From: Earliella scabrosa | Lineage: Eukaryota > Basidiomycota > Agaricomycetes > Polyporales > Polyporaceae | NCBI GenBank assembly: GCA_022605405.1 | Contig: JABYQQ010000010.1 | Coordinates: 1,178,001 to 1,242,000 of the forward strand | Direction of reading: 5' to 3' | DNA length: 64,000 bases | In this document: positions 27,185 to 62,586 of the stretch, piece by piece | How positions within the stretch are numbered: position 1 is the stretch's first letter | Layout: the number at the start of each line of letters is the position of its first letter | The notes under the pieces: model-generated | Database searches by the model: none | What the model saw: only the letters and a program-made list of their open reading frames with translations | Told to the model about the DNA's origin: nothing | Translations under genes and position numbers: made by a program

Positions 27185-29894
27185 TCAGTACTCCCAGGGG
27201 TGCATTAACATGGGGGGGTGTTTACGGGGCTGAGACCTGTCGAACACATTTTGTCCTGGCAGCGCGGGCAGTACAAGATTGTCCCCTCGGACGCAAGCAT
27301 GCATCGGTCGAATTTGTCCGCACATTGGATTGGCGGTGCACTTGTAGGAGCTGAACAGTTTCCACATGACGACGGTGCCGAGCGGGGGCATGCACGCTTC
27401 CTCGATCCGTGTTCTGTCGTCTCCGAGGGGGTCGATGAAGTCGATCAACGACACGGGGTCGCCGAAATAGCGGAGCTCATTCGGACAGATGTTCTCCAAC
27501 ACGAAGCACTCGCGGCTGGGACGGCTGAAGTGGCACATGCGACGTTCCCACGGGGGTGGAGGACCCCATGCAAGTCGGTATGGCTGTGAGGGCGTGGCGG
27601 GGTAATCGGTTGAGTCGGTGGATTGTTCCGTGTCCTCGCTCTCGGTGGTGGAGTGTTCAGAGTTGTCATCGTCGTGAGAGATTGACGCGTTGTCTTCGGC
27701 GGAGTCCGTTTGTTGAAGTTCTGAATGAAGCGAGCTGGAGTCGTAGTTGCTGGAAGGTTCCGGATGAAGTTGCGATTGGTCGTCGAACTGCGATCGGCCT
27801 AGATGGGATGGGGACTGAGACGTCGACGCGGCGACGGGGTCGAGACACGGGTGGCTGGGTTGGCAAACGGAGTCCGCGCTCGTCGGTGGTTGGATGTGGG
27901 TGGTAGGTGGAGGAGGGGATTGGGATATGACGCGTTGGTCCAGCATCGGTGGTGTGAGGGTAAGAGGAGAGGGCTCGTCGAGGTGGGATACGTGTGTGGA
28001 TGGCAATAGAAGCGGGGGTTTTGTATCGGTGGGACAAGGTGAGTTGACTGGGGAGTTGGAGGAGGAATGATTGAGTTGGGGGGCTGTATGCGTCGTAGCA
28101 GAGGTCGTAGTTGAATGGGAACGGGCATCGCTGGGTGACGTTAGCGCGATCACGGTATCCAGCATGTTCTGATCTGCGGTGTCTGACGTATATGGGAGAG
28201 ACGAAGCGGGCGAAGGACCTAAGGGAGTGGTTGACCTGCGGGGAAGGAATCTTGGGGGCGTAGGGGTGTCTTTGATCGGGATGGCAGGGAGCGGCAAGTT
28301 CAGTCGGTACGTGTCAACGGGTTTGGGTCGTTGGATGGAAGCTGGGTCGTCTATGCGGGGAAGTGCATCGTGTTCAAGATCGTCGAGGAAGGTCCCTTCG
28401 GTGACGAAAGCAGGCGTGGAAGTCACGGGGATCGGGCGAGGGCTCGTCGTCAATTCGGATCCGGTGGAAGAGGGAGGCGTGGACATCTCGTGTACGTCGG
28501 GGGGGGCGACACCGTCGTACATGTCGCAGTAATCTTCGGCGTCGGACATGGTCACGATCGAGCTGGCGTCGGATTCGGGTATGAGGTTGGGTAACGGGAC
28601 GGAGAAGGGATGGGGGATCCAGGAAATATGGAAGCCTTGGTCGGTTAGAGAGTTGAGGACTGCATATTTGATGATGCTTGCACAGGGAAGGGCCCAGTCG
28701 GCGAGGAGGCCCTGCCGGTTGAGAGTTAGGTGAGGGTAGGCGCAGCCGAACGAATACGTCGTCACGTAGTTGATCAACAGCGTACAGGGCTGCCGGCACA
28801 ATGATGTCATTGCACTGAAAGTGGGTGACTGGAACGTGGTGACGATGATGCCCGATTTGAGATTGAACTGAGTGCTCTCCGTCCAGTCATACGCGCCGAA
28901 CCGGGCTTTATTGAACGTTGTTTCCCGTGTTATGGAGTGGCGCAGAGCCGTTCTGAGGGCGTCGATAAGAAGTGGGTACCAGTCGAATGGTGCGTAGATC
29001 CAAAGGGTATTGTACTCGTAGGTGGAGTCGCGGAGGATGAAGTAAAGGGCTACTTCTCCTCCGATGACAGCTCGGTGGTCGTATAGCATCTTCAGAAGTT
29101 GGTCTGGCTCGTCCGTGATCGGCCGAAGTGCGCGCCTGAGAAAGCCTCGTAGAGATAACACGGTTCGTTGGTATGACGATCGGCAGGTGGCGCGCCACGC
29201 AAGGAGGTCGACGAGATTGAGCTCGGTCATCATGAGTTCGGTTATCTCTGCCGGGAGACTGCCGGGGTCTTAGTTAGTGCGGAGAACTGTAAATGTTGAT
29301 GGAATACGAACTTGGTGATGGTCGTGGTTGTCTGGCGACCGGTTTCCGGCCCATGACCCGGCGTTCTGAGGGCTTCGAAGGAAGCCATCGGGGATGGAGG
29401 GCTTCGTGCGGAGGCTGGCGGGTGAGCGGGAGGAGCGGGAGGAGTGAAGTTGAGTATTATAGTTGCCGCGTGGTGTCGTCCGGGGGGCAGGGGCTGGTTT
29501 GGACTGGGCGACAGGGTTTCTGACTCGTTGGATATAAGCCGTGGTCGGTCCGACTGTATGTAGATTAGGTTGTTTGATTTAGAGTGGGATGTGACGGGGT
29601 ACCTTGGAGTTACTGGATTGAGCGATGATCAGCTGTGGAGCATTGACTGGCTGGCGCGACTCGCTACATGGGGTAAGTGGCCAGTGTATTGATCGATCTA
29701 GGTGCCTGTGATCGTGACGTTCCTTGACGAAGCTGTGAAACGCACTGACCTCGTGGTGGTGGAGACTGCGATGATGACGGGGGCTGGTGCCGGTCCGGGA
29801 GGGGGTCATCGGTCCGGTTTGTGATCAGCCGCTCTTCGTCTGTCGCACGCCGGGCTTCGCGCGCCGTCCGGCGCTGGTCTGCGCGCCTCATCAT
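27185..29894 (-). CDS. F-box-like / nucleotidyltransferase-like family protein, member 1 (with long insertion)
   Basis: Four exons (29750-29894, 29603-29646, 29312-29553, 27185-29258) join in phase to 834 residues. A disordered Pro/Ser N-terminus leads to an F-box-like segment (LPAEITELMMTELNLVDLLAW, shown to its first part), then the family core HRAVIGGEVALYFILRDS and NYVTTYSFGCAYPHLTLNR. The C-terminal block is ICPNELRYFGDPVSLIDF and PPLGTVVMWKL. Between core and C-terminal block is an insertion of more than 300 Ser/Thr/Pro-rich residues, absent from the other three members at 46.5, 58.0 and 61.4 kb. The core resembles the G-G/S ... D-x-D start of nucleotidyltransferase folds, but the acidic pair is not kept. 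Function unknown. Confidence 0.75.
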
Positions 29895-30694
29895 TGTTTT
29901 TGACTGCACTCTGATGTCGGTATCTGTGTTGCGGTGGCAACAGCGTGGCTTGGCAGTGATGAGGCCGTGTCATTTGTCTTAGTTTTGCCTTGGCAGACTG
30001 GGAGACTGGGCTTGTGCTGATTTGTATTCATGTTGTTGAGAAGGATATAAGACGGAGAACATGACGAGCGATTCTCTCGTGCTCTTCCCTCTTTGCATGA
30101 AAGGTTCGTCAGTCGTGAATGCCTGTTTCACTGGTGGGTTGGTGATGGCAGTTGTGTCTGAGTGTACTCACGAGTATCTGATGTCTATGTAGGTCTATGT
30201 TATGGTAATGTTGGAAGTGCTCCTGTCGTTAAAAACATGCTTTATGCATATCGTGGTATGTTGAGTCTGAAGAACTTGTCTGTCATATTGATCTAATGAG
30301 TTTCAGATGATCGGTGCATGTTCAAAAGCTATGTTAAAGTAATCTATGTTCTTGCATATTGTTTCAGTAAGTGGACTAATAACTCTACACTGTCTGTGGT
30401 TTGTTGATGAGTTTTGTTGTTTGTATTATAGTTTAAAACAGTCACACAGTATGAGACATGAGTATGATATGTGATATGAGTTATGAAAATGACGTAGTGT
30501 ATGACGTAGTGTATGACGTATAGTATGACGTATGTTAATGATCTGTGTTCCTGAATGACTGGTGTATTGTTCTGAAAATTTTCAAGTAATGTAGCGCCAA
30601 GGTTTATAATGTGACGGGATGGAGTAGATAGAATCTTGACTTTTTGGATATATAATGAATTATGTGAATACATGAATCTAGTTGCTTGTGCACA
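29895..30694. other. Intergenic, AT-rich, with a 12-bp microsatellite
   Basis: No gene supported. Composition turns AT-rich here and stays so to about 32 kb. The repeat gacgtagtgtat occurs in three near-perfect copies plus remnants at 30489-30534. Confidence 0.5.
30489..30534. repeat. 12-bp microsatellite
   Basis: Near-perfect copies of gacgtagtgtat at 30491, 30503 and 30515, the last slightly changed. Confidence 0.7.
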
Positions 30695-31407
30695 ATGTCT
30701 CTCATCGTCCATCCGCGCACATGTCTGTATTGTGGATTTCTTGCCTATATGTGGTGCTCAAGATGTCACTCTGCATGGTACTGTAGTCAGATGCATATGA
30801 ATATGGTGAGCAACTTCTTGTCATCGATTCGTAATGAGATTGTTTGTTGAATTGTTATATTGGAGGACTGGACACAGCATCGTTTGTGGTGCATCCCTCA
30901 CAACATGTGTCATCCAACAGAAGGCACTGTTGCGATGGTTCCAGACAGGCATGAATGGGTGACTGGTTATGTCTTTTGGCCTACAGAGGGTGCGTGGTTC
31001 TGCTTTATTTTTTGGATTGGTTATTAAGGTCGTTTAAAGCAGAGAATCCAATAATCACGAGGATTCACTATATACCAGGTTTTACAACATCAAATCAATC
31101 AGCTCAGCCTGAACCGCAGCTGCAGTCAATTGTTACAGATAGTATTCCTACTGAGGCTTTGATTGAAGGAGGAATATCTGGATCACTTCTTCGATTCCCA
31201 TTAAGTATATGGTACTGTACAACGTCTTTTCAGCGTGGTGGGCCATTAAATCGTGCAGTCGAACGGCTCGTTGGACAATGTGTACATCGTGCATGGTATG
31301 GACCTGTTGTATTACTGAAATATGGTGGATCCAGACGTCGTCAGTTTGCAGGGGTGCATGGATATGACTTACCTGTTCTTGCTGCATACTTTAGAAGTCT
31401 TGTGTAG
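30695..31407 (+). CDS. Small MYND-type zinc-finger protein
   Basis: Three exons (30695-30805, 30866-30989, 31043-31407) give 199 residues. The N-terminus is a MYND finger at residues 9-46: CLYCGF...CSRCHSAWYCSQMH, an intron, then DWTQHRLWC, giving the C-x2-C...C-x2-C...YC-x3-H...H-x3-C pattern. MYND fingers bind proline-rich partners. The remaining 150 residues (for example IEGGISGSLLRFPLSIWYC, GYDLPVLAAYFRSLV) match no family I know. Acceptor 31042 is chosen over the nearer one at 31028 because it avoids a stop. The gene sits in AT-rich DNA unlike the GC-rich housekeeping genes. Confidence 0.75.
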
Positions 31408-41722: not shown

Positions 41723-43280
41723 TTACTTCTTCTTGCCCGCCTTCTCCGCCGACTTGGTGACTGTACGAACGAACGCTCAACAACGATGAACCGGCAGTAT
41801 ACTTGAGCACACTTACCCTTGCCACCAGACTTGTCGGTCTTCTCAACGGACTTGATGATGCCGACGGCGACCGTCTGCCTCATGTCGCGGACAGCGAAAC
41901 GACCAATAGGGGGGTACTCGTTGTACGACTCCACACACGTGGGCTTGCTCGGCACAAACTTGGCAATGCAGGCATCGCCCGACTTGACGAACTTCGGGTT
42001 GGCCTCGATCGACTTACCCGTCCGACGGTCAATCTTCTCGATGAGCTCGGCGTACTTGCAAACGATGTGGGCGGTGTGGCAGTCGAGAACGGGTGCGTAA
42101 CCCGCGCCGATCTGACCAGGGTGGTTGAGGATGATGACCTGTGCGTTGAAGGATGCGGCCTCCTTGGCGGGGTCGTTCTTGGAGTCGGACGCGACGTTAC
42201 CACGACGGATATCCTTGACCGAGACGTTCGTGTACTACAGTCAGACTCTGATGGACGGATGAGCGCGAGCGGTACACACTTGACGTTGAAGCCAACGTTG
42301 TCACCGGGCACATCCTGCTCAAGCTGCTCGTGGTGCATCTCGACGGACTTGACCTCGGTGGTGACGTTGGTGGGAGCGAAGGTGACGACCATGCCGGCCT
42401 TGATGATACCGGTCTCGACACGACCGACGGGTACCGTACCGATACCATCGATCTTGTAGACATCCTGGAGGGGAAGACTGTACTACAGTCAGACTCTGAT
42501 GGACGGATGAGCGCAAGCGGTACACACTTGACGTTGAAGCCAACGTTGTCACCGGGCATACCCTGCTCAAGCTGCTCGTGGTGCATCTCGACGGACTTGA
42601 CCTCGGTGGTGACGTTGGTGGGAGCGAAGGTGACGACCATGCCGGCCTTGATGATACCGGTCTCGACACGACCGACGGGTACCGTACCGATACCATCGAT
42701 CTTGTAGACATCCTGGAGGGGAAGACGGAGGGGCTTGTCGGAGGGACGGACCGGAGGCTCGATGGCATCGATGGCATCGAGAAGGGTCTTGCCCTTGACG
42801 ACACCGGCCTTAGTCTCCTTGGTCCAGCCCTTGTACCACGGCATGCTGTGAAAGAGTAAGGACATGATGATCGCACAGATTTGGTGCATATACTCACTTG
42901 GTGGACTCCTCCAACATGTTGTCACCGTGCCAGCCGGAGATGGGGACGAACGCGACCGCCTTGGGGTTGTAACCGACCTTATTGATGAAGGTAGACGTCT
43001 CCTTGACGATTTCGTTGGAACGGTCCTCAGACCACTACAACGACATGAGCAACCCAATCGACCACGACGCCTAGGAAAGGGGCGAACCTTCGTGGTGTCC
43101 ATCTTGTTGACGGCGACGATGAGCTGCCTGACACCGAGGGTGAAGGCGAGGAGAGCGTGCTCGCGAGTCTGACCGTCCTTGGAGATACCAGCCTCGAACT
43201 CACCGGTACCACCGGCGATGATGAGGATGGCACAGTCAGCCTGCGCGGTACCGTGTTCTTGATGAAGGGACGGCGGTGGT
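41723..43280 (-). pseudogene. TEF1: 5'-truncated, rearranged copy of translation elongation factor EF-1alpha
   Basis: The minus strand carries EF-1alpha exons with their introns: [26 protein letters not shown] then [46 protein letters not shown], ending [10 protein letters not shown] and a stop at 41723-41725. Homology begins abruptly at the DFIKN region near 43280. The first 90 or so residues, with the GTP-binding P-loop, are missing. A short deletion removes the MITGT region and breaks the frame. A 248-bp tandem duplication repeats the exon from LQDVYK to FNVK with its intron, and the acceptor before NVSVKD has lost its AG. Since introns are kept, this is a DNA-level copy, not a retrocopy. 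The functional gene must lie elsewhere. Confidence 0.88.
42231..42726. repeat. 248-bp tandem duplication inside the EF-1alpha pseudogene
   Basis: Units 42231-42478 and 42479-42726 differ at only a handful of bases (for example gagcgcgagcgg versus gagcgcaagcgg, and cacatcctgctc versus cataccctgctc). The junction is at gaagac|tgtactacag. The near identity indicates a recent event or an assembly error. Confidence 0.9.
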
Positions 43281-44334
43281 GTGACTATGACAACATTTGG
43301 ACGGGAGGTTTAATTCGCGAGCTTGCGTACGTGCTCTGTCTGGACGAACACGTAGCTATTCGAGCGCGTGAGGTCGTGGGACGTGGGACGTGTAAGTGGA
43401 CGCTGCAACTTGTATGTTCAGTGGTCTTGTACGTGACTCTCTCGGGAAATGACCGACCTATGGCGTCGGCAACCTTAAGATGGACGTACATCCGTAGTCG
43501 GGACGATGACATGGAAGATCGCGCCGAGCTGCGGAGTCAGACAGGACACAGAGAACAAGATGCTGGAGAGGACATACGAAGGACGTCGCGGGCGAGGTTG
43601 CGAGGTTGAACGGGTCGACGCACAATGCCAGATGTGGATGTAGGCGGTTTGAATCAACGTTCGCTCGCGGGCAGGACGCTCCTGGGCAGATCGTTGATTG
43701 GAAGAGCATAATTAACCTGCCCTTCTGAGAGCCAGCTCTAACTGGGATGAAAGAGCATCTAGGTTGAAGAACGGAGACGAATGAGAACGAACGGGGACAA
43801 GGAACGCAAGGGACGAGGTGACGAGTGTCGGAGTATCGAGGAGCATTCGGGCGGAGTTTGAAGATCCGGAAAAGCCCGTGACTACGCCTTGAGGTCTCGG
43901 ACGGAACGTTGGAGGGAACCTGCAAGAGGCACTGGTGCGGGAAGATGAGAGGTGAGCTTTGCATATACTCTCGTTTAATCTGTTTGACATCGTCATCTAG
44001 GTGGGACTCGCCGCCGAGTGCATCGAATTCTGAGACCCAACCTTGACGTGTCTCTGTCCGGGACGAGTCCCCCGCCCCCTTTCATCCACTCAACGAGTAA
44101 CCTCTTCCTTCCACGCCGTATCTCTCACGTCGCCGATGTGTATTCGCGTTTCGCTGTACGTCTCCTCTCTATGCGTACATTGTTGAGTTTTCATGCGTCT
44201 CTGTTCAGCTCAAGATGTTCACGCACCTCTCCACGGATCTTTGCGCTCTTCGACATGTGATTCGGCCTAATGTATGCGTCGTCGTTCTGTATGGTGCGTC
44301 TTTCTCCTCCTGGACGTGTCTTCGCCCTCATGTA
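43281..44334. other. Intergenic, nothing supported
   Basis: Replaces the expected 5' part of EF-1alpha. No gene or repeat family recognised. Confidence 0.4.
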
Positions 44335-45803
44335 CCTCGTCCATGCACACCTGTACCCTCCTCTACCCGTCTTCGTCTTTCGGCGTGCACTCTCGCCCTC
44401 CGCAACGCGACTTCGCCCTCGTACATGCGTCTCCGACGCTTGTGGGCACGTTTCCGCCGTCCGGCGTGGGTCTCCGTCCTTCCAACTGCACCTTCGCCCT
44501 CGAAGACGCGTCCCCCCGCCTCCATGAGGCACCCTGGACGGCACGCCTTCGACCTCAACGAAGGGTTTCTCGCCTCAACAACGCGAATTGCATGTCTACG
44601 ACGTATGCTGTCCCTCGGCTCGACCCCCGATGCATGCTAGCAGGACATGGATGAACGTCCTCGCGGCGTCCTGGACGCGTTGAACGACGGTCCATCCTCT
44701 CCGGCCAGCCTCCAGACTTCGCGGCCTCTATGGCGGGTGCTAGACCTCGCCTTCGGCCTCCACGACGAGCCAGATGGGCCAATCACTGCACTCATCAAAC
44801 CTTCCACACGGGGCTGAAGCGTGCGGACGCGTCTCTTCGTCTACAGGCCCTCTCTTCCTCGTCCACGTACATCTGCACTTTCCTCTACCCGTCCTCGTCT
44901 TTCGGCGTGCGTTCTCACCTCCGCAACGCGACTTCGCCCTCGTGCATGCGTCTCCGACGCTTATGGACACGTTGTCGCCGTCCGGCGTGGGTCTCCGTCC
45001 TTCCAACTGCACCCTCGCCCTCGAAGACGCGTCTTCCGCCTCCATGAAGCATCCTCCGCGGCACGTCTTCGACCTCAACGAAGGGTCTTCCGCCTCAACA
45101 AGCGTTGACGACGTATGCTGTCCCTCGGCTCGACCCCCAATGCATGCTAACAGGACACGGGTAAACGTCCTCGTGGCGTCCTGAACGCGCTGAACGGCGG
45201 TCCATCCTCTCCGGCCGGCCTCCAGACTTTGCGGCCTTTATGGCGGGTGCTGGGCCAATCACTGCAGGCCCTCTCTTCCTCGTCCGTGCACACCTGCACC
45301 CTCCTCTACTCGTCTTCGTCTTTCGGCGTGCACCCTCACCCTCCGCAACGCGACTTCGCCCTCGTACATGCGTCTCCGACGCTTGTGGGCACGTTCTCGC
45401 TGTCCGGCGTGGGTCTCCGTCCTTCCAACTGCACCCTCGCGCTCGAAGACGCGTCTTCCGCCTCCATGAGGCATCCTCCACGGCACGCCTTCGACCTCAA
45501 CGAAGGATTTCTCGCCTCAACAACGCGAATTGCATGTCTACGACGTATGCTGTCCCTCGGCTCGACCCCCGATGCATGCTAGCAGGACATGGATGAACGT
45601 CCTCGCGGCGTCCTGGACGCGTTGAACGACGGTCCATCCTCCCCGGCCAGCCTCCAGACTTCGCGGCCTCTGTGGTGGGTGCTAGACCTCGCCTTCGGCC
45701 TCCACAGTGAGCTAGATGGGCCAGTCATTGCCTGCACCGAACCGCCTACATGGGGTTGAAGTGTGCGGACGCGTCTCTTCGTCTACAGTCCCTCTCTTCC
45801 TTC
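44335..45803. repeat. Three-copy tandem repeat, units of about 0.42-0.52 kb
   Basis: A block starting cctcgtcca/cctcgtccgtgcacacctg recurs at 44335, 44857 and 45278, and a second landmark, tgcatgctagcaggaca, recurs near 44630, 45143 and 45571. The middle unit lacks roughly 100 bases present in the other two. Inside each unit a shorter motif, cttcgNcctc, recurs many times (gacttcgccctcgt, ccttcgccctcgaag, cttcgacctcaacgaag). Frames are open on both strands because of the base composition, and I do not call a protein. Confidence 0.8.
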
Positions 45804-46517: not shown

Positions 46518-47712
46518 TCAGCGGGTCAGGGACCGAGAACGACGGAGTATCGCTGTGTTAACATGGTTCTTGACCTTGCGAGTAGCGGTTTGTGTTGTTC
46601 GTGCAGGGTACGGATTTGGTAAGACGAGAATGGGGGTCGAAACCAGCCATTCGTGGAGGACGCGGTCCGTGATGTCGCAAGAAGCTGCGCAGTCGAACGT
46701 CGTCAACAACCGCCAGGCAACCATCGCGCCGAATGGGGGTACGTGGAGTGCACGGAGGTGCGGTATCATCGGGCTGAGTGGATCAAAGAATCCGACCAAG
46801 GATCCACGGTCACCGAAGTATCTCCCTTGTACAGGGCAAAGGTACAAGTCACGGAGGCAAGCGTAGGACATCGGGGGAATACCACCGTGGATAGGGATGT
46901 TGTACTCCGGCCACCGTCTGGGATCCACGTCAAACTCAAAACCGGCACGAGTCAGAGCGCTGTTGACAGCGGCATCCGTCTCGCACTTCGTTTCAAGCCG
47001 CATGTCGGACAGTATTGCTCGACGGGCGAGGGTGAGAGCCGGGTACGCGCACGCGAACGTGTGCTGGGTGAAGAACGTCATGTGGGCAGTCGACGGGGAT
47101 CGACTGAGAGTGGAGCATGCGCTGATGACCCCGGATTTGTAAACCACGAAGAATTTGCCGGTCTTCAGGACGAAGGTGGTAGCTGCAGCGATGTCGCGTT
47201 CGACTGAGATTTGAGAAGGGACCTCCGTCGCCTCGCGTACCACGATTTGACGAGAGAGTACAGACGAGCTTGACAGCTTCTCGATAAGGTATCGGTACAT
47301 GTAGCACCCGGCGTACATCTGCAGTACGTCGCACGTCACGCTGGGGTCACGGAGTACCAGGGACAGCGCCGCGACACCGCCGACGACCGCTCGATGTTCG
47401 GTCATGAGGTCGAGAAGTGGTTCGAAATCCGGAAAGAACGGTCGTAGAATCCGGCCGATGTCCCGGTCGATGGATGCCTTGCACTCAGTGTAGGTCGTGC
47501 GACACGTTGCTCGCCATCGCATGAGGGTGGGCATGTCCATGGCATCAACCAACATCGACTGTATGTCCGCATTGATTCTGCGGGGATTGGTCTGGTGAGG
47601 TGGGTGTCGGCGGGGAGGAATGATAGCGTACGTACTGCAATATGTTGTCAACCTTATCCTCCGTCTGCACGACGGTGTTCGTGGAAGCACTGGGACTGAG
47701 TGGTGATCCCGT
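46518..47712 (-). CDS. F-box-like / nucleotidyltransferase-like family protein, member 2 (5' end unresolved)
   Basis: Two exons are clear: 47636-47712 (TGSPLSPSASTNTVVQTEDK then VDNILQ) and 46518-47577; the initiating exon was not found. F-box-like start: INADIQSMLVDAMDMPTLMR followed by WRATCRTTY. Core: HRAVVGGVAALSLVLRDPS, then CDVLQMYAGCY. Middle: HMTFFTQHTFACAYPALTLA. C-terminal block: CPVQGRYFGDRGSLVGFFDP and PPFGAMVAWRLLTTFDC. It lacks the long insertion of member 1. The same layout recurs at 57971-59125 and 61411-62586, all on the minus strand. Function unknown. Confidence 0.72.
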
Positions 47713-48445
47713 CTGTGTTCGAGTGAGTACTACTGCCCCTCATCGTATGTTTGTCCTCGCACCATCCTGTGTGAGTTGACACGAGTCTTCGTACAGTCGA
47801 TGCGAGTGGTGGGAGGTGCTGGCAGAGTGCGTGGGAATGTGGTTGTGGATCTGACGTGCGCGCGGGCGGGTGGTAGAGGGCCGAGAAGGGATGGTTGGTC
47901 GTCGTGACCGTTCTTATGGGACCTTGCGTGTCGCGCCAAGCACTCCGGTCCAGGCAGTACTGCGGGAGTGCGTCGCGATGTGTGGCGTTTCGAGCGTCGC
48001 CTGCGGTGTGCGCTGGATTAAGCTGGTTCATATGCGCGTCCTTGGAAAGAGGATAGCACTGAGTTTCCATCTTCGAGAACTCTGGCATTCTCGGAGGGAC
48101 TCTTCATGTGAAGGATGAATGGATAGCCCAGTGAGGAAGTGATGTGAAGACGAAGAGCTGCGGTCCCTGATGAGTCATGGTGCTCGTGGATATTTCTGTT
48201 TTGGGTGATAAGACGGATGTGCCAACGGAAAAGACTCGTTTACCTAAAGAGGTATTGAGATCTGGTCTACGGTGGAAGACTGGGAGTGTCTGGTCCGTCA
48301 TTCTATTGCTGTAGTGGTAGTTCGGAGCAATCCAAGTCAAGGTTTCTAATGACCAATCTATGTCGGCGTAGCGGCGCTTCAAGCAGACGCAGTGATTTCA
48401 GACTAGCTATCTAAGAACGGCAATTTCAGGCAAGCTGTCTAGTAA
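47713..48445. other. Intergenic, with probable 5' end of the member-2 gene
   Basis: Should contain the missing first exon of the gene ending at 46518 and the 3' flank of the ribonucleotide reductase-like gene. Nothing else seen. Confidence 0.35.
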
Positions 48446-51398
48446 CTAGTTTGGTATCTGGTATACCCCTGACTTCATGCCCGAGTCCCACGCGCGAGCT
48501 TGCAGCACGTACTGCGTCAGCTGTGTCAGTGTATCTTAGTGCGCTCGATCAGTTGTTGACTCACGAGAGTTCGGATTGTGGATGCATGGATGTCGACCTC
48601 AAGGGCCTCTGCTTGTTCGACGTACGGGGCACGGTCAGCCGCCATGTCGAGGGCGGTGACTAGGTTAATCTCTTCGGCCGTTTGGTATATCTCTAAGACC
48701 TCGGCAGGAATCCCGACGATATGTTGCACCGACCCTATCATGGATGTTTAGATGGGTCATGGTCAGAAGAGGAGAGCCGTTACTTGCCGTTCGTCCACTC
48801 GATTGACGTTCGAGTCGCTGCATTCCACAAGCCGAGGTCTCGCAGATCGCGAACCAGAGCCGGCCGTACTTCCTTGTAGTACTTCTCTCCGTCGTGATGC
48901 GTGATGATGTTGCTGCTCTTTGTTTAGCGTTGAATGGTGCGATGATTAGGACGCTTACCTATACTGGGGGCCCGCCCCACCCCATCGAGCAGTGGGCTGA
49001 GCAAAAGACGTTCCTGGGAGCTGTGCAGTGATCACCGAGTTGCGCAAGCCGTAATGAGCGATGCGGATCCTCAGAGCGTCGAAATCGAACCGCAGTTCGG
49101 GGAATGCGGGCCACATGTCGATATGCAGAACCCCCCGCGAGGCGGCGGAGCCTTCCCACAACGGATACGGACCATGGGCCTGGGCTAGGGCGCAACTGGC
49201 GTCGAGGGCGGCGTGATATATTGTATCGAAAATGTCGACATTTAGGATACGGGAATTGGGGTCTCCGTATCGGTGTCTGAGGGCCATGAAGGTCTCCCCG
49301 AGACCATGCGTGCTGACGGCCAGGCTTCGCGTTCTGATGACAGCCAGGGCGGACGTCTCGGAGGGATAGGTCACTCGGTCGATGAGACGGTCGCAGTTCA
49401 AGACGACAAGCTTGGTGAGCTCGTGTAGAGAAGCGAAGTCGTAGGTGCCATCTGGGAGGACGAAGTGATGTAATGCGATCGATGCTGGAATTGCAGCTGG
49501 TGTCTCCGTCGGAGAAGACACTTGGACGAGACTTGCGCTTTCGTTTGAGGCGCGGACGACTCCGAGGTGGGCTTGATTGTTTTTCTCTGTCATTTGGTAT
49601 TAGGCATGAAGAGGGGAACATAAGGTTGGTCCCTACGGTTCAGTGCGCAGTGAAAGACGCAGAACGGGAATCCGGACTCAGTTTGCGCTTCGCATATCAG
49701 GCGCCAGAGGTCTTGGGCCTGGACAATCGACGTCTCGCAGCCGGTGGACTCGTATACCTCGTACATTGAGGAGAATTGAGCCCCATACGTCGATTGCAGA
49801 CCAGGGACATCGGCCGGATCAAATAGAGACCAGCTCCCGTGCGAGTCCACCCTCTCCATGCTACCCGCGATCCTAAGCACTCCGTCACTCGAGGGTTGGG
49901 GAGTACACTCACAAAATGTCCGGAATCCAGAGAGCGGGCGCAATATGGGTGAGGCGATTGTCGTCATCGACACGCTGGCGTCTGCACTCTACGAAGGCTC
50001 GTACGTCGGCATGCCATATTGGGAGGTACGCTGTGGCGAGGGGCCTCTCTTGTGTAGAAGTACAGGCATGATATGCTGCATGCGCGTCGTACAGTCGTAG
50101 CAGAGCCATAACACCAGGTTCACCGTGAGTTGATCTGGATGTACAAGTTAGCATGAAGGGTTAGAATGTAATGTCACTACTCGCCTTGTTGCTGGGACGC
50201 GTCCTAACGAGATGCCAACTACCGCGTCGAGGCACCAGATATCGTCGAGGTCGTCCGCGGTGTCTGCGAGACTGAACATGAAGTCCGATGGTTCATACAC
50301 AAACGTGGTAGGGTAGATTGGGCGGCTAGTAGCCGCGTTGCGGAAGAACTGTGGAGGATGGATGTAATGCTGTCGAGATAGTGCTTCGTATGTTTGCTGT
50401 ATCTTCGAGAGGTCGTCTCGATGGATAGCGAGCGCGGCGCGCATGTACGTGTGCTGCGGGAGCTCCATCACTCGCCCCCCTGCTTGAATCATGGATGTAC
50501 TGGCGAACTTCCGAAGAGCGGGGCTACTTCCTTGGTGAGAGTATGACTAGCGCAAGAAGGAAGTGGTACTTACTACGTAGCGTCCATATCTCTTGTGTGG
50601 TCGAGCATTGAGTCGATGATATCAGCATTCCGCTGTACGAAGTCAGCGATGCCGTCGTCGAACACCAGCGGGATTCCTAATATGGCGGCGAGAATGAGCA
50701 TGTATTCGTCGGTGATACGGGCGGGAAGCGTACGCTCTCCGACTGTGGCCATCCAGACACTGAATCGGTTCTCGACTGATCTGTGAAGGTGCGTCGCGTA
50801 GATGCGACCAGACAAGATGAAGTACTCGTGATGATAATATCCGAGCTCTGCGATTACAGACGCTGCCTTCTCCTGTGTGCGATGTTGGTTTTATAGTTGT
50901 CGAAGAAGGGCATGAAGTTAAGGAGGCGCACCAATAATTCGGCGGACTTCGTCTCTGAACCAAGTGAGTCGAACACGGTCTTCGTAAGTCTACGTGATCG
51001 AGAAATTGCTTAGATATGCGCGAGGTTTTGGGCACCATGTACTTACACGTCGGCGGTTTCTATTCCCCTCTGCAAGTCGTTCGATATCTGATGTTCGTTT
51101 GAGTGGCAGTGTTACACCGGAAGACCAATCCGAAGGATGGCTTAGGCTGACCTCTATGACGAAGTTCTCAAACTGCGATGGTGTGTGAGCGGATGTAAGT
51201 GGTACGCTTGTGCTCGGCATACCCGGGTACAGTCGAACAGCTCTTCTCGTCTGGAGATGCATGAGCCTCGGTGGCAGGGACCTATAGTCACGCTCTCACC
51301 CATCTAGTATGTCAGAGTTAGTATCGGAAGGGTAGGACGTTGCACATAAGATACTCGCCGTTCTTCACAATCAACTTGATGACTGGGTTTGTGGACAT
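48446..51398 (-). CDS. Ribonucleotide reductase large-subunit-like protein, catalytic residues lost
   Basis: Twelve exons (51355-51398, 51223-51292, 51047-51172, 50948-50989, 50574-50872, 50185-50499, 49913-50134, 49637-49860, 48959-49586, 48788-48912, 48565-48734, 48446-48520) give 779 residues without a stop. Homology to class I R1 runs from about residue 95: GRVMELPQHTYMRAAL, IWHADVRAF, ALWIPDIFMERV, NGSWSLF-like HGSWSLFDPADVPGL, LNVDIFDTIYHAALDASCAL, HGPYPLWEGSAASRGVLHID, YGLRNSVITAQLPGTS, SVQHIVGIP, MAADRAPYVEQAEALEV. The redox Cys of PQLSSCF is Thr259; the NLCTE site is NESAS (464 Ser for Cys, 466 Ser for Glu); the partner Cys of VCNLAS is Ile480; the radical-transfer YY is YQ (775-776); the C-terminal CxxC tail is absent. 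The first 94 residues do not read as an ATP cone. It cannot reduce ribonucleotides by the known mechanism. Two introns appear to be GC-AG. Confidence 0.85.
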
Positions 51399-52358
51399 GG
51401 AGGGCTTCGTCTGAGTGTTAGTGGTGGTCTCCGGACCAGTGCGTGATGAGGTCGACGAGACTTGGGGATGAGGCCTGGTACTTTCGAGATTTTATTGCAT
51501 TGAGGCGATGCGGTCGGTCGGCCGCATTTGGATACGATCGTCTGGATGGGTATTTTCGTGTTGGTAGGCGCCTACGTGCTTCGGAACCACTAGTAGGTAC
51601 TAATCAGGTGAGCAAGGACGATCAGGTGCGATGAGGTACGCGATCAACAACTGTGTCGGATTGTGTCTGCATATGCATATCAGTCAATAGAAGATCACGT
51701 TCGACACCTCTCCGCTCATCACTTACCCAGTTCGCTAGGGCGGGGGACGGACGATTGCCTATCATAGACAGCTCTCAGCTTGGTCTACTGCCCTGCTTTC
51801 ACTGGCACGGTAGTGGTCACGGCTGTGAAGCGATGAGTCTCCGTGAGCAAGGAAGCTCGCGTAATCCGTGTCCCCGAGAGTCTGAATCTATCCCGTGTAG
51901 GTTGGAGAGGCCGAGGTTCCGACAACGACCGATGTCGGCTACTCTTACGCGAGTCTGCACCGCTTCGAGTGCAGGCACGTCTGTACGTAGGATTGCATCG
52001 ATGTAGGTCTCACAACGGTGGTGGTGTCTTCGGCCGGGATCAGTCATACGTTCGTTCTCTCGGCAGTATTGTCCAAGCTGGAGAGTGAGCCAAATGTGGC
52101 AGGTGGGGCGAGTGAAAGCCGGACACAGCGCCGGGGTTCAGCCAGCGCGAGGGCACTGGTCAGGGAACCCATGGCTGAGACGTCGTTGGATCCGAGGAAC
52201 GATGAAATGGAGCAACCGTCCCAGAGCCGCAACTGCGGCGGACGAGTCAGCCGATAGGGTGCGGCATGACAATATCAATGGGACGGATGAGGGGGCGTGG
52301 TTCCACGATCATGTGGTCCGCGAGTCTAATCACAAATTTATTCAGAGCTGGGCTTGAG
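51399..52358. other. Intergenic, unresolved
   Basis: A minus-strand stretch at 51817-52170 (MGSLTSALALAEPRRC... and ETYIDAILRTDVPALEAVQT) has a coding look, but no consistent exon model was found. Confidence 0.3.
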
Positions 52359-53577: not shown

Positions 53578-54357
53578 TCAGGGACGACCGCGTTTGGGGC
53601 AAAGGGCGGTGAAATCGTACCATCTTGCGATGTGATCCATGAGAACCCGCTCGTCGGACCGGATATTCGAGATTCTCTGTGACGGACGAACAGCATGTCG
53701 AAGGAAGACGACGTTCCCCATTGTGTGAACCTGCAGATGCCGTTCGCAGCAAAGGTTCGGGGCAGACCGTAGGTAGTCCACTGTTGTGAATACAGTATAC
53801 TGAATTCCCGACTCTGACCGGGCAGTCTGGGCGCGGCAGATCTGACTTTGATACCCGAAGGGGAACCAGGCGCTGACGTCGGCATCCTCGACCCAATATG
53901 CCGCCAAGGGATCGTCGTCGGGGTCGGAGTCCATCGGGAATAACACGACACGCGGCCGGGAACTTCCCACTGCGTATATCAATCCTTTGACTAATCTTGT
54001 CGCGCGGCTCTGTGGCGTTTACAGTCGGGGCGCTACGGTCAGCGATCGCCGCAATAAGTCGGACAGAAGATGTCCATGGGTCACATACCTCTCTCAGACG
54101 TTCCCGCATGCGACGATTGTGCTCCGTGATCGCTGAGGGTTGTGTGCTTGTGATCTGAAGAGGGACGGAGGCCTTGACAGATGGATTAGACCTGTTCCTC
54201 GCGATGCGTATTGACACGAGCGTACCGGGGATGCCATGGGTGCGTTGGCGTGCGAAGAGTGACGGTAGAACTTGAAGATGTGGACAGTGGTGGACGCCAG
54301 TTGGTGTTCTAAGTATGCGTGGGAGCCCATTGTGTCCGAGCGCTCCGAGGTCTCCGA
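53578..54357 (-). CDS. Hypothetical protein, 5' end unresolved
   Basis: Two exons are clear: 54089-54357 and 53578-54009, joined in phase, encoding about 232 residues and ending at the stop at 53578-53580. Readable parts are GDLGALGHNGLPRILRTPTG, AITEHNRRMRERLRE, SRATRLVKGLIYAVGSSRPR, VVLFPMDSDPDDDPLAAYWV, SAWFPFGYQSQ and MGNVVFLRHAV. An acceptor at 54358-54359 shows that at least one more exon lies upstream, probably in 54400-54700, where hydrophobic frames occur. No domain recognised. Part of the same-strand series with the reductase-like gene. Confidence 0.55.
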
Positions 54358-57970: not shown

Positions 57971-59125
57971 TTAGACGGTAGCTGCGCGCCGACGACCTGG
58001 GAGACGGACTGACAGAGTAGTGATGGCGGGCGGATGGTCTGGACCTATGGGGTCCGGTGGGAAGGCGGCCGTCAAAGGATCGTCGACGAGGATCGAGAGG
58101 ATCGAGACGACCCCTGCCTCGAGAAGGGGATCGTGAAGTGCGCAGCCTGCGTTGCAGGCTCGCGTGCTCCACAGACGCCATGTCGCCATGTGCCCGTAGG
58201 GCGCGAGTCCACGGTCTTGGGTGAAGGCTGCTCCGTGTGTTACAGGGTCGAAGAAGTCGACGAGGGAGCCTGTGTCACCGAAGTAACGGCCTTGGTCGGG
58301 GCATATGAAGAGAGGTCGCCTGCAAGGGAACACGCCCGCCATCAAAGCTCTGGGCGGGTGGTCTTGGTACGATGGCCATCTCGAAGGGTCCACCGCGAAG
58401 GAAAATCCGTGCGAGACCATCTGGGACAAGGTCCAGACCTCGTGGCTCATGATGTTGTCGAGGGTCATGTCCGAGACGAGAGCACGCCTTGCTGAGGTCA
58501 GTGGCGGATAAGCGCATCCAAAGGAATGCGCCGTCACGTAGTTCATGAGCCCCGTGTTCCAGGTACGGCTGATGGGAGAGCACGCGCTCATCGTGATGGA
58601 TTCGTATACGAAGATGGCTCCTCGGTCTGCAGTGCGGAACGTGGCGTACCGAGCAACCTCTCGCTGGGTGATGTATATCGGAGACGGGGATGTGATGTCC
58701 TCGAGGCTCACAGCATGGCATATGGAGGGGGAGAGGGAGAAGAAGTCGATCAGAGTATGAAAGCCAGTGTCGGAGGTGAAAATCTCCACGTGTGAGATAG
58801 GGAATGTAGGGTCCCGCAGGAAGAATGCGAGGGCAACTTCGCCTCCGATGAGAGCCTGACAGTCAGTCAGGACCTGGAGGAACTCGGCCGAGCAAGGGAT
58901 GAAAGGGTGAAGCAGGTCCTTCAGAGTACTCCTCAGTTCTTCGGCGACGACTCTGTATGTGACCCTAGACGCGTTCCTCCAGTTCAGAAGGGACCCAACG
59001 TCCAGCGACTGCGATACCAAGGCGAGCAGATCCTCGCGCTGCCTGTGGAGTCCGGAATGAACAATCGGTGAGCACGGAGAGCGCTTTCAGACTCACCACA
59101 AGATGGAGCTTTCCTCGACAGACAT
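57971..59125 (-). CDS. F-box-like / nucleotidyltransferase-like family protein, member 3
   Basis: Exons 59097-59125 and 57971-59042 join in phase to 366 residues starting MSVEESSILWQREDLLALVS. F-box-like segment: LDVGSLLNWRNASRVTYR. Core: CQALIGGEVALAFFLRDPTF, then SHVEIFTSDTGFHTLIDF. Middle: NYVTAHSFGCAYPPLTSARR. C-terminal block: ICPDQGRYFGDTGSLVDFFD and APYGHMATWRLWSTRAC. In a true nucleotidyltransferase a D-x-D/E pair follows the G-G; here the aligned stretch is HVEIF, with only Glu left. Compact version without the insertion of member 1. Function unknown. Confidence 0.78.
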
Positions 59126-61410: not shown

Positions 61411-62586
61411 CTACACTGACGATGCTCTGGAAACCCTCTTGCTGTTCGTGCTCGCCTGCACGGGAAGGCGGTGCTGAGCTCTTCCTCGCTGAGGCCGAAA
61501 TCGGTTGGGGAGGAAAAGTGTGGCCGTCGACACGAGCCACTCGTTCAGCAGGGGGTCCGATCGATCGCATCGTTCAGGACACTCGAAGGACGTGGACAGC
61601 CTCCAAAGGACCATGGGGCCAAATGGCGGCACCCCGCTAGCTGCAATGCTCGACGAAGAAGTGTGGAGAGGGTCGATGTACCCGACACATGAGCCACGAT
61701 CCCCGAAGTATCTTGCCTGCTGTGGACAGAGAAATCGCCGACGAAGACACTTGTCACCGATAACTTTCGTGTTCTCCTCCGCTCCTCGCGCGGCGCGGTC
61801 CCATGCGTTCGGATCCAGAGCGAACGTGAACCCGGCCTTGTCCAGGGCGCCAAACGTCACTTGGTCGAGCTCCGTGACGTTGTAGGACCTCAGGTCGGAC
61901 AACAATGCCCGATGATTGAAGGTTAGACTGGGGTAAGCGCAGCCGAAGGTGTGTTCAGTCACGAATGCCATGAGAGGGGTGGAAGGCATTCGACTGATGG
62001 CAGAGCAGGCACTGGCAAACGCCGTCTGGTAAATGACCGCGGCCCGACCGTTCCGGAGGTGAAGGACAGTCTGAGCCTTGATATCTCGTTCGGCCGCGTA
62101 TCGAGAAGAGAGCTCCGGGTTTGACACTGCGACGACGTTGGGACCTGTCTCTCCACCATGGATGAGCTGGTCCAGCAAGCGCTCGTACCAAAACCCGGTG
62201 GTGAAGATTTCCAGGGTGTCGTACGAGAAGGAGCATTCCCGGAGGATGAACTCCAAGGCCCCCATCCCTCCAACGACCGCGCGCGTTTCCGTCAGACATG
62301 GAAGCATGTTCTTCGAGTAGGGGAAGAAACGCAGGACGACTCGCAACAGTGTCCGGCGAAGAGAGCCGGTGGCCTGCGCGTAGTTCGTCTTGCAGGTTCT
62401 ACGCCATCGAACCAGGGATCGGAGGTCCATTTCATCCGCAATGAGTCCTTGTATCTCGGTGTGTAGTCTGGTCCGTCCGTCAGTCGTGCGTTCCACAGGC
62501 TAATCGGGACGTACGAGGTGATGTGCAACGTCTGCGCCAACACAGCGTTCCACGACGAAGTCGCCTGCCGAAGGTCTGTGTTCCAT
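61411..62586 (-). CDS. F-box-like / nucleotidyltransferase-like family protein, member 4
   Basis: Exon 2 (61411-62499) is certain; a likely first exon 62554-62586 (MEHRPSAGDFV) joins in phase, giving 373 residues. F-box-like segment: LHTEIQGLIADEMDLRSLVR followed by WRRTCKTNY. Core: TRAVVGGMGALEFILRECSF, then YDTLEIFTTGFWYERLLDQL. Middle: AFVTEHTFGCAYPSLTFNHR. C-terminal block: CPQQARYFGDRGSCVGYIDP and PPFGPMVLWRLSTSFECPER. The closest relative in the window seems to be member 2. Same strand as, and just downstream of, the Helitron-type helicase. Confidence 0.75.

Follow-up and report, generated by a model that had tools for sequence, protein, structure and literature searches.

Ribonucleotide reductase (RNR) sets the supply of deoxyribonucleotides (dNTPs) for DNA replication, and the parasites that carry their own RNR are typically large DNA viruses. 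Textbook Helitrons end in TC and CTRR, with a hairpin at the 3' end, insert at AT, and join an HUH-type Rep domain (Helitron_like_N) to a PIF1-type helicase in one large ORF. Two described systems come closest to the locus analysed here, a 64,000-nucleotide stretch of the genome of Earliella scabrosa, a wood-decay fungus of the Polyporales ("the window") with a catalytically dead R1 gene that we name R1-B. The first is found in betaherpesviruses: UL45 of human cytomegalovirus and M45 of murine cytomegalovirus are R1 homologues lacking most catalytic residues and kept by a genetic parasite, and they are described as inactive (PMC5469499). The second is the fungal Helitron. HELPO of Pleurotus ostreatus has a large Rep frame with a Helitron_like_N domain, extra genes and abrupt copy ends; such elements are reported to measure about 6-14 kb, and full-length gene capture to be exceptionally rare (PMC4289320, PMC6431247).

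The window (C10:1178001-1242000 of a 51.7-Mb assembly) carries R1-B on the minus strand at 48446..51398. It is a full-length R1 homologue with an open spliced frame, and no frame restores the lost catalytic residues. An initial annotation, made from the letters alone, had likened it to the betaherpesvirus proteins, and the likeness holds. The Earliella gene differs from them in that the dead R1 coexists with a catalytic R1 (hereafter R1-A) and R2 in one unit, in a fungal genome and with introns.

A full-length R1 homologue without its active site

The gene model was built with a custom spliced aligner, with the cellular R1 of Earliella as reference. It holds 686 residues between window positions 50866 and 48455, with no stop and no frameshift; the initial annotation had likewise seen no stop, in a proposed frame of 780 codons and 12 exons. 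The eight exons (50866-50574, 50523-50185, 50134-49913, 49860-49637, 49586-48959, 48912-48788, 48734-48565 and 48511-48455) are separated by seven introns of 46-53 bases each. For the N-terminal exons, between 51398 and 50867, we rely on NCBI's model P0001 (C8Q76DRAFT_694497, 696 aa). This model is the same gene; it starts with MSTNP at the ATG at window position 51398, ends two residues past our own model and splices the middle parts partly otherwise. A chance resemblance to R1 is excluded, because P0001 matched PF02867 with 246.8 bits and the 686 codons contain no stop where a base-shuffled frame is expected to hold 23.7.

Both the R1 barrel and the all-alpha domain are present, and the protein shares with class Ia R1 (NrdA/Rnr1; PF02867 and PF00317) nearly the full length of the fold and many invariant core residues. 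It lacks the redox Cys pair, the thiyl Cys, the catalytic Glu, the complete Tyr pair and the Cys tail of an active class Ia enzyme. At the positions of yeast Rnr1 C218, N426, C428, E430, C443, Y741 and Y742 it has T, N, S, S, A, Y and Q, and it terminates after YQ. Unlike class Ia R1, it thus keeps only N426 and one Tyr among the catalytic residues, and it has neither the Cys tail nor an ATP-cone match (P0001 is the sole scanned R1-B model with its N-terminus from the start). These replacements, and the retained substrate-site Asn, had been read correctly at the outset, except that the second redox Cys is replaced by Ala, the reported Ile lying one place on.

An alternative splice form that restores the cysteines is ruled out by the spliced alignment and a six-frame motif scan. 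No motif like NLCTE, SSCF, AVCNLAS or YYLR occurs in the six frames of 48001-51800; the same scan found all four in the three forward frames of a control R1-A (L013). The minus strand of this interval has a single CxxC, the internal CYDC at window 50102, and the opposite strand has five. The scan would miss a motif interrupted by an intron, but the spliced alignment would not.

Across the genome PF02867 matched 99 exons, which we group into 45 places: one normal cellular RNR1 (C9:78792-80790), as the initial annotation had anticipated, 30 R1-A (including two short fragments) and 14 R1-B. We read the DNA of 20 R1-A and four R1-B; three more R1-B were read as NCBI proteins and placed by contig and order, and the seven unread ones were assigned from their weak R1 score, their place and a neighbouring F-box-like gene. 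The loss of catalysis is common to the relatives: C428, E430 and C443 are lost in all seven R1-B read and C218 in the six that cover the position, with replacement residues that vary between copies. Six of the seven are readable as far as the C-terminal region, and all six end at or just past the Tyr position. Both redox Cys, the thiyl Cys, the Glu and both Tyr are kept in 19 of the 20 R1-A. A C-terminal CC or CxxC is found in eight of the 11 printed R1-A-type ends (P0004, P0005, P0008, P0009, P0011, P0012, P0014 and P0015); P0006 has a lone Cys, P0007 has none and P0010 is cut short. TIGR02506 scored 541.2 and 548.1 bits on the R1-A proteins P0004 and P0005, and 239.7 (P0001), 322.9 (P0002), 298.1 (P0003) and 273.4 (P0013) on R1-B, all four under the cut-off of 341.05; these scores are lowered because the four R1-B models are all incomplete or partly mis-spliced.

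Some copies are peculiar in their arrangement. The one R1-A with a substituted catalytic residue, L017 (C25:327649-329764), is a tandem second copy with 91% protein identity to L018, in which only Cys218 is lost (to Ser); it is possibly an early step toward another loss of catalysis. R1-B and its F-box-like neighbour form a tandem triplicate on C1 (2419015, 2434203 and 2449393, about 15.19 kb apart), with an identical score of the F-box-like gene in all three. Two R1-A with identical scores lie at the start of one contig (C3:1674-3070) and the end of another (C7:2595586-2596982), probably a subtelomeric duplication.

The fold of R1-B is predicted to be intact. The AlphaFold2 model of P0002 (predicted local distance difference score 84.8, predicted template-modelling score 0.88) matches human and yeast R1 along nearly the whole length. 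Ten R1-A share 195 invariant positions among the 595 core columns, and 59 of these are invariant in R1-B too. Another 28 R1-A-invariant columns are absent from all R1-B, including C218, C428, E430, C443 and the second Tyr. From R1-A to R1-B the within-family conservation percentile drops from the 89th to the 13th for the finger loop, from the 93rd to the 1st for the phosphate loop (PTAST) and from the 72nd to the 4th for loop 2. It rises from the 86th to the 94th for helix alpha-D and from the 73rd to the 94th for alpha-I. In yeast Rnr1 these two helices border the site of the R2 tail (PMC3483043).

A dispersed unit with a Helitron-type Rep

R1-A, R2, R1-B, F-box-like genes and a Rep of about 2,000 aa with a Helitron_like_N domain share one dispersed unit. 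An R2 lies within 60 kb of 27 of the 30 R1-A, and a gene of unknown function, Z, within 12 kb of 25. From 65 helicase matches we defined 33 Rep loci with at least 44% identity, after two short pieces had been folded into the loci to which they belong. All 33 have PF14214 within 12 kb, and 26 have an R2 within 35 kb, in divergent orientation in 26 of 26 cases. Conversely, 26 of the 28 extra R2 genes have a Rep nearby, when the best-scoring pair is set aside as cellular. This pair (C5:1027600, minus strand, and C5:1029632, plus strand) consists of strong head-to-head R2 genes that outscore every other R2 match in the genome, and it is probably the cellular R2 pair. A homologue of the F-box-like gene that lies directly downstream of R1-B in the window (46521..47729, minus strand; named by eye, with no Pfam match) is found within 9 kb of all 14 R1-B, on the same strand in 13. 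The Rep of the window's copy is a 2041-residue open frame running past the window, with PF14214 at C10:1244594-1245253 (124.1 bits).

Of the seven Rep loci that lack an R2, six have a copy of gene Z within 60 kb (gene Z at C3:1600527, C6:1183924, C23:149872, C8:1849980, C2:360247 and C4:772445). They probably represent elements of this kind that do not carry the RNR genes. A reasonable history would start with Rep and gene Z, with the RNR genes acquired in one branch and R1-B in a sub-branch.

One terminus of the unit could be located. L027 and L028 are 99.4-99.8% identical, apart from one 0.5-kb insert, up to a point downstream of R1-A and unrelated after it, and L014 ends at the same point. 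The end motif, GC-rich and then YTAT (the latter recognised by eye), was found 16 times at 15 of the 20 R1-A loci, at distances of 0.3 to 4.2 kb downstream of the gene; at this cut-off it is missing in L012, L015, L018, L019 and L025. As expected of a stretch that should lack this end, the window contains no match below six mismatches. One 40-base end folds at -9.5 kcal/mol (no shuffle control). If the motif at L013 ends the window's copy, that copy would start no later than C10:1224590 and run to about C10:1265834 (at least 41 kb).

Because it combines a Helitron-type Rep with a conserved terminus and unrelated flanks beyond, the unit looks like a giant Helitron-like transposon. It differs from described fungal Helitrons in its size of at least 41 kb, in its full-length R1, R2 and R1-B, and in its end. 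R1-B is therefore no ordinary gene of the fungal host. The R1/R2 repeats had at first suggested an endogenous giant virus or mirusvirus, a candidate made less likely by the B-family DNA polymerase (PolB), which does not recur with the clusters: PF00136 matches five places, of which one (C8:1700115-1701642) is 7.7 kb from an R1-B. PF03175, PF04451 and the Starship captain domain DUF3435 (PF11917) had no match in the genome, weak negatives as the searches had no responding control. The dUTPase is not amplified in the genome.

Origin, selection and possible roles of R1-B

We placed 61 R1 proteins in a tree by a quick method without bootstraps, with several long branches. All seven R1-B form one clade (SH-aLRT 99), joined at 97 to 12 Earliella R1-A that themselves hold at 94. 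The intron-phase run 2,1,2,1,0 is found in four of four R1-B and 17 of 20 R1-A, and the cellular gene lacks it; the duplicate hence arose from DNA, not from mRNA. These data indicate that R1-B is a duplicate of the intron-bearing catalytic R1-A and has been inherited alongside it. Where R1-A is readable, R1-B accompanies a sister-clade R1-A and tracks it: the order of R1-B by contig repeats that of R1-A, with a distance correlation of 0.872 over six pairs (P0002/L015 being picked by contig and score) that 7 of 720 permutations reach. As to R1-A itself, 13 of the 80 IMG/VR R1 loci were put in the tree, where all 13 form one group, and element R1-A does not group with them. In the midpoint-drawn tree R1-A does not form a single clade, since L019, L025 and the Trametes proteins lie in the half that holds the cellular and viral R1s.

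Synonymous divergence was saturated, and not computable for many pairs, and we therefore compared codon positions. L029 and L031 differ by 33, 24 and 61% at positions 1, 2 and 3, with third positions near saturation, and the window copy and L030 by 45, 37 and 65%. The ratio of second- to third-position differences is 0.33-0.45 for the former pair and 0.51-0.64 for the latter (95% bootstrap), compared with 0.15-0.24 and 0.28-0.38 for R1-A pairs. R1-B is therefore constrained, less than R1-A. There is no stop in the window copy, in L029 (678 codons) or in L031 (650 codons) and one in L030, against about 24-28 per copy expected of a plain pseudogene. These results indicate that R1-B has been under purifying selection after the loss of catalysis, alongside R1-A. 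They agree with the initial view of a retained pseudoenzyme, with the fold kept and the active site lost. A decaying pseudogene is ruled out for the family by the same ratios and stop counts; for individual copies, L030 for example, it is an improbable alternative.

Seven of at least 229 R1 homologues listed by two protein searches have a substitution at a catalytic position: four Earliella R1-B, a partly degenerate R1 of Ganoderma sinense, a dead one of Psilocybe, and P0053 of Lasiodiplodia, which may be a poor gene model. In G. sinense the consecutively numbered R1 paralogues GSI_12239/GSI_12238 (P0012/P0024) are a catalytic copy, P0012, and one (P0024) with C218->S, N426->S and Y742->C that keeps C428, E430 and C443. 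In P0061 of Psilocybe cf. subviscida (D9619_013762) all seven positions but Y741 are replaced, and it is probably an independent dead R1. Both the Ganoderma pair and P0061, the latter on a very long branch, lie outside the R1-B clade, and they therefore look like separate losses. The initial annotation knew of no such protein in fungi. Among the open-access titles and abstracts listed by literature searches, none mentions a fungal R1 pseudoenzyme or an RNR-bearing Helitron, most subscription papers and all preprints being outside these searches. Herpesviruses are a known case of a parasite that maintains a dead R1; what is new, as far as we found, is the setting and the combination with a live RNR.

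What R1-B does may be sought in the RNR of its own unit. R1-A and R2 would reduce ribonucleotides, as known from the biochemistry of the enzyme, and would serve as the element's private RNR, making dNTPs for its own replication under loosened allosteric control. PF03477, the ATP cone, matched cellular P0022 (46.6 bits) and, below the cut-off, two Trametes proteins (20.5 bits), and had no match in the Earliella R1-A-type proteins P0004, P0005 and P0010. The idea that R1-A has no cone at all was dropped, as five copies (L011, L021, L023, L027 and L028) align to cone remnants; their readings extend into the cone region, and we therefore call the cone degenerate. Of the residues that we take to form the S-site (D226, K243 and R256), the Lys is absent in all compared R1-A and R1-B and the other two survive only sporadically. 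Feedback control of R1-A thus seems weak, because the cone is below Pfam recognition and loop 2 and these residues are mostly altered.

A decoy role for R1-B, already raised by the initial annotation, or a partner role is possible. We tentatively favour a silent R1 that sets the activity of the private RNR. R1-B would be a non-catalytic scaffold that pairs with R1-A, or that holds R2 or fills the R2 docking groove, and might thereby regulate, stabilise or buffer the enzyme. The wider proposal, a giant mushroom Helitron-like family with a private RNR (R1-A with a degenerate cone and altered loop 2 and S-site, and R2) and a dedicated R1 pseudoenzyme as regulatory or decoy subunit, is more tentative still.

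Several observations weigh against this interpretation. Few of the 17 R2-tail contacts of yeast Rnr1 are kept in R1-A (W389 is constant; seven of the 20 R1-A were compared), and R1-B has only some of the R1-A versions; retained R2 docking hence rests on conservation at the level of the helices. Dimer helix 1 is conserved below average. Clusters with an R1-A of another clade (L011, L012, L014, L019, L020, L025, L027 and L028) have no R1-B of their own, L011 lying 83 kb from that of another cluster, and the sister-clade L021 and L032 likewise lack one. Among the 20 R1-A frames 14 have no frameshift, five have one (perhaps missed introns) and L032 has five, and the element R2 is assumed to be functional from its Pfam scores. 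As for the class of the element, the terminus was found on one side only, with no shared motif at the left end; it differs from the TC/CTRR of textbook Helitrons, and L028 has a second copy of the motif about 0.6 kb past the first. Finally, R1-B evolves 2.26 times as fast as R1-A, L030 has its internal stop, and L029 has one frameshift in its reading, which may be a missed intron.

The faster rate and the drift of the active-site loops to different residues in each copy would also suit a scaffold repurposed outside RNR biology, binding a host or rival-element factor and directed against a host genome-defence or checkpoint protein. UL45 and M45, inactive by the absence of most catalytic residues, are described as RIP1 binders (PMC5469499), and inactive R1 homologues of betaherpesviruses have further partners. 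We consider such repurposing rather unlikely, since the tracking of sister-clade R1-A fits a partner at least as well and the four scanned R1-B proteins have no extra Pfam domain.

A passenger duplicate under relaxed selection, with decay still to come, seems improbable. The rate, the defects of L030 and L029 among the four DNA-read copies and the higher position ratio of the window-L030 pair speak for it. The lower ratio of L029-L031 with third positions near saturation, the scarcity of stops in these two and in the window copy, and the 59 columns invariant across both families speak against it.

Sml1 and Spd1 are small RNR inhibitors, and an R1 core with surface helices kept without catalysis could act as a decoy that soaks up such a host inhibitor and raises the dNTP supply of the element; this is quite improbable given the unremarkable conservation of the dimer helix and the absent C-terminal tail. 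The nucleotide sensor suggested by the initial annotation is very improbable: N426 persists in two R1-B, the window copy and P0002, but is lost in five of seven, the phosphate loop and loop 2 are lost, the S-site Lys is absent from every copy compared, the finger loop is poorly conserved and P0001 has no ATP-cone match.

A transposon with full-length R1 and R2 in more than two dozen diverged copies, and a dead R1 beside the live one in about half, would be a new mobile-element strategy and would give R1 pseudoenzymes a second origin, outside viruses. If the wider proposal holds, rolling-circle transposons would control the supply of dNTPs for themselves, like large DNA viruses. The notion that Helitrons rarely carry whole genes would be revised. 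The family would also be a natural experiment showing which R1 surfaces matter without catalysis.

Other features of the window

Further genes of the window may belong to the same unit. A conserved open reading frame (ORF) of unknown function on the minus strand (53581..54018) has matches at 10 of the 23 element loci, in the neighbourhood of R1-B as well as of R1-A; two relatives had no Pfam match. Homologue matches identify two more members of the element's F-box-like family, both on the minus strand (57974..59086 and 61414..62499). The minus-strand segment 63015..63998 is the C-terminal part of the 2041-residue frame that carries PF14214; it is helicase-like by eye, with no Pfam match at 0.1 and a weak PF02689 match on one relative. 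Further left, a more distant F-box-like member (27188..29269, minus strand) could indicate either where the left part of the element lies or an insertion of greater age. Two ORFs on the plus strand (30668-30847 and 30955-31404, together 30668..31404) were matched beside the R1-B of L029 and may belong to the element; their zinc-finger motif is presumably MYND-like.

Two other repeats were seen in the window. An EF-1alpha-like fragment on the minus strand (42200-43309; PF03144 and PF00009) contains a 248-bp tandem duplication with 99% identity (42231-42726), and is either a pseudogene or a recent duplication. The interval 44319-45757 holds two or three copies of diverged direct repeats, spaced 421-522 bp or 942 bp apart, with 72-98% identity.

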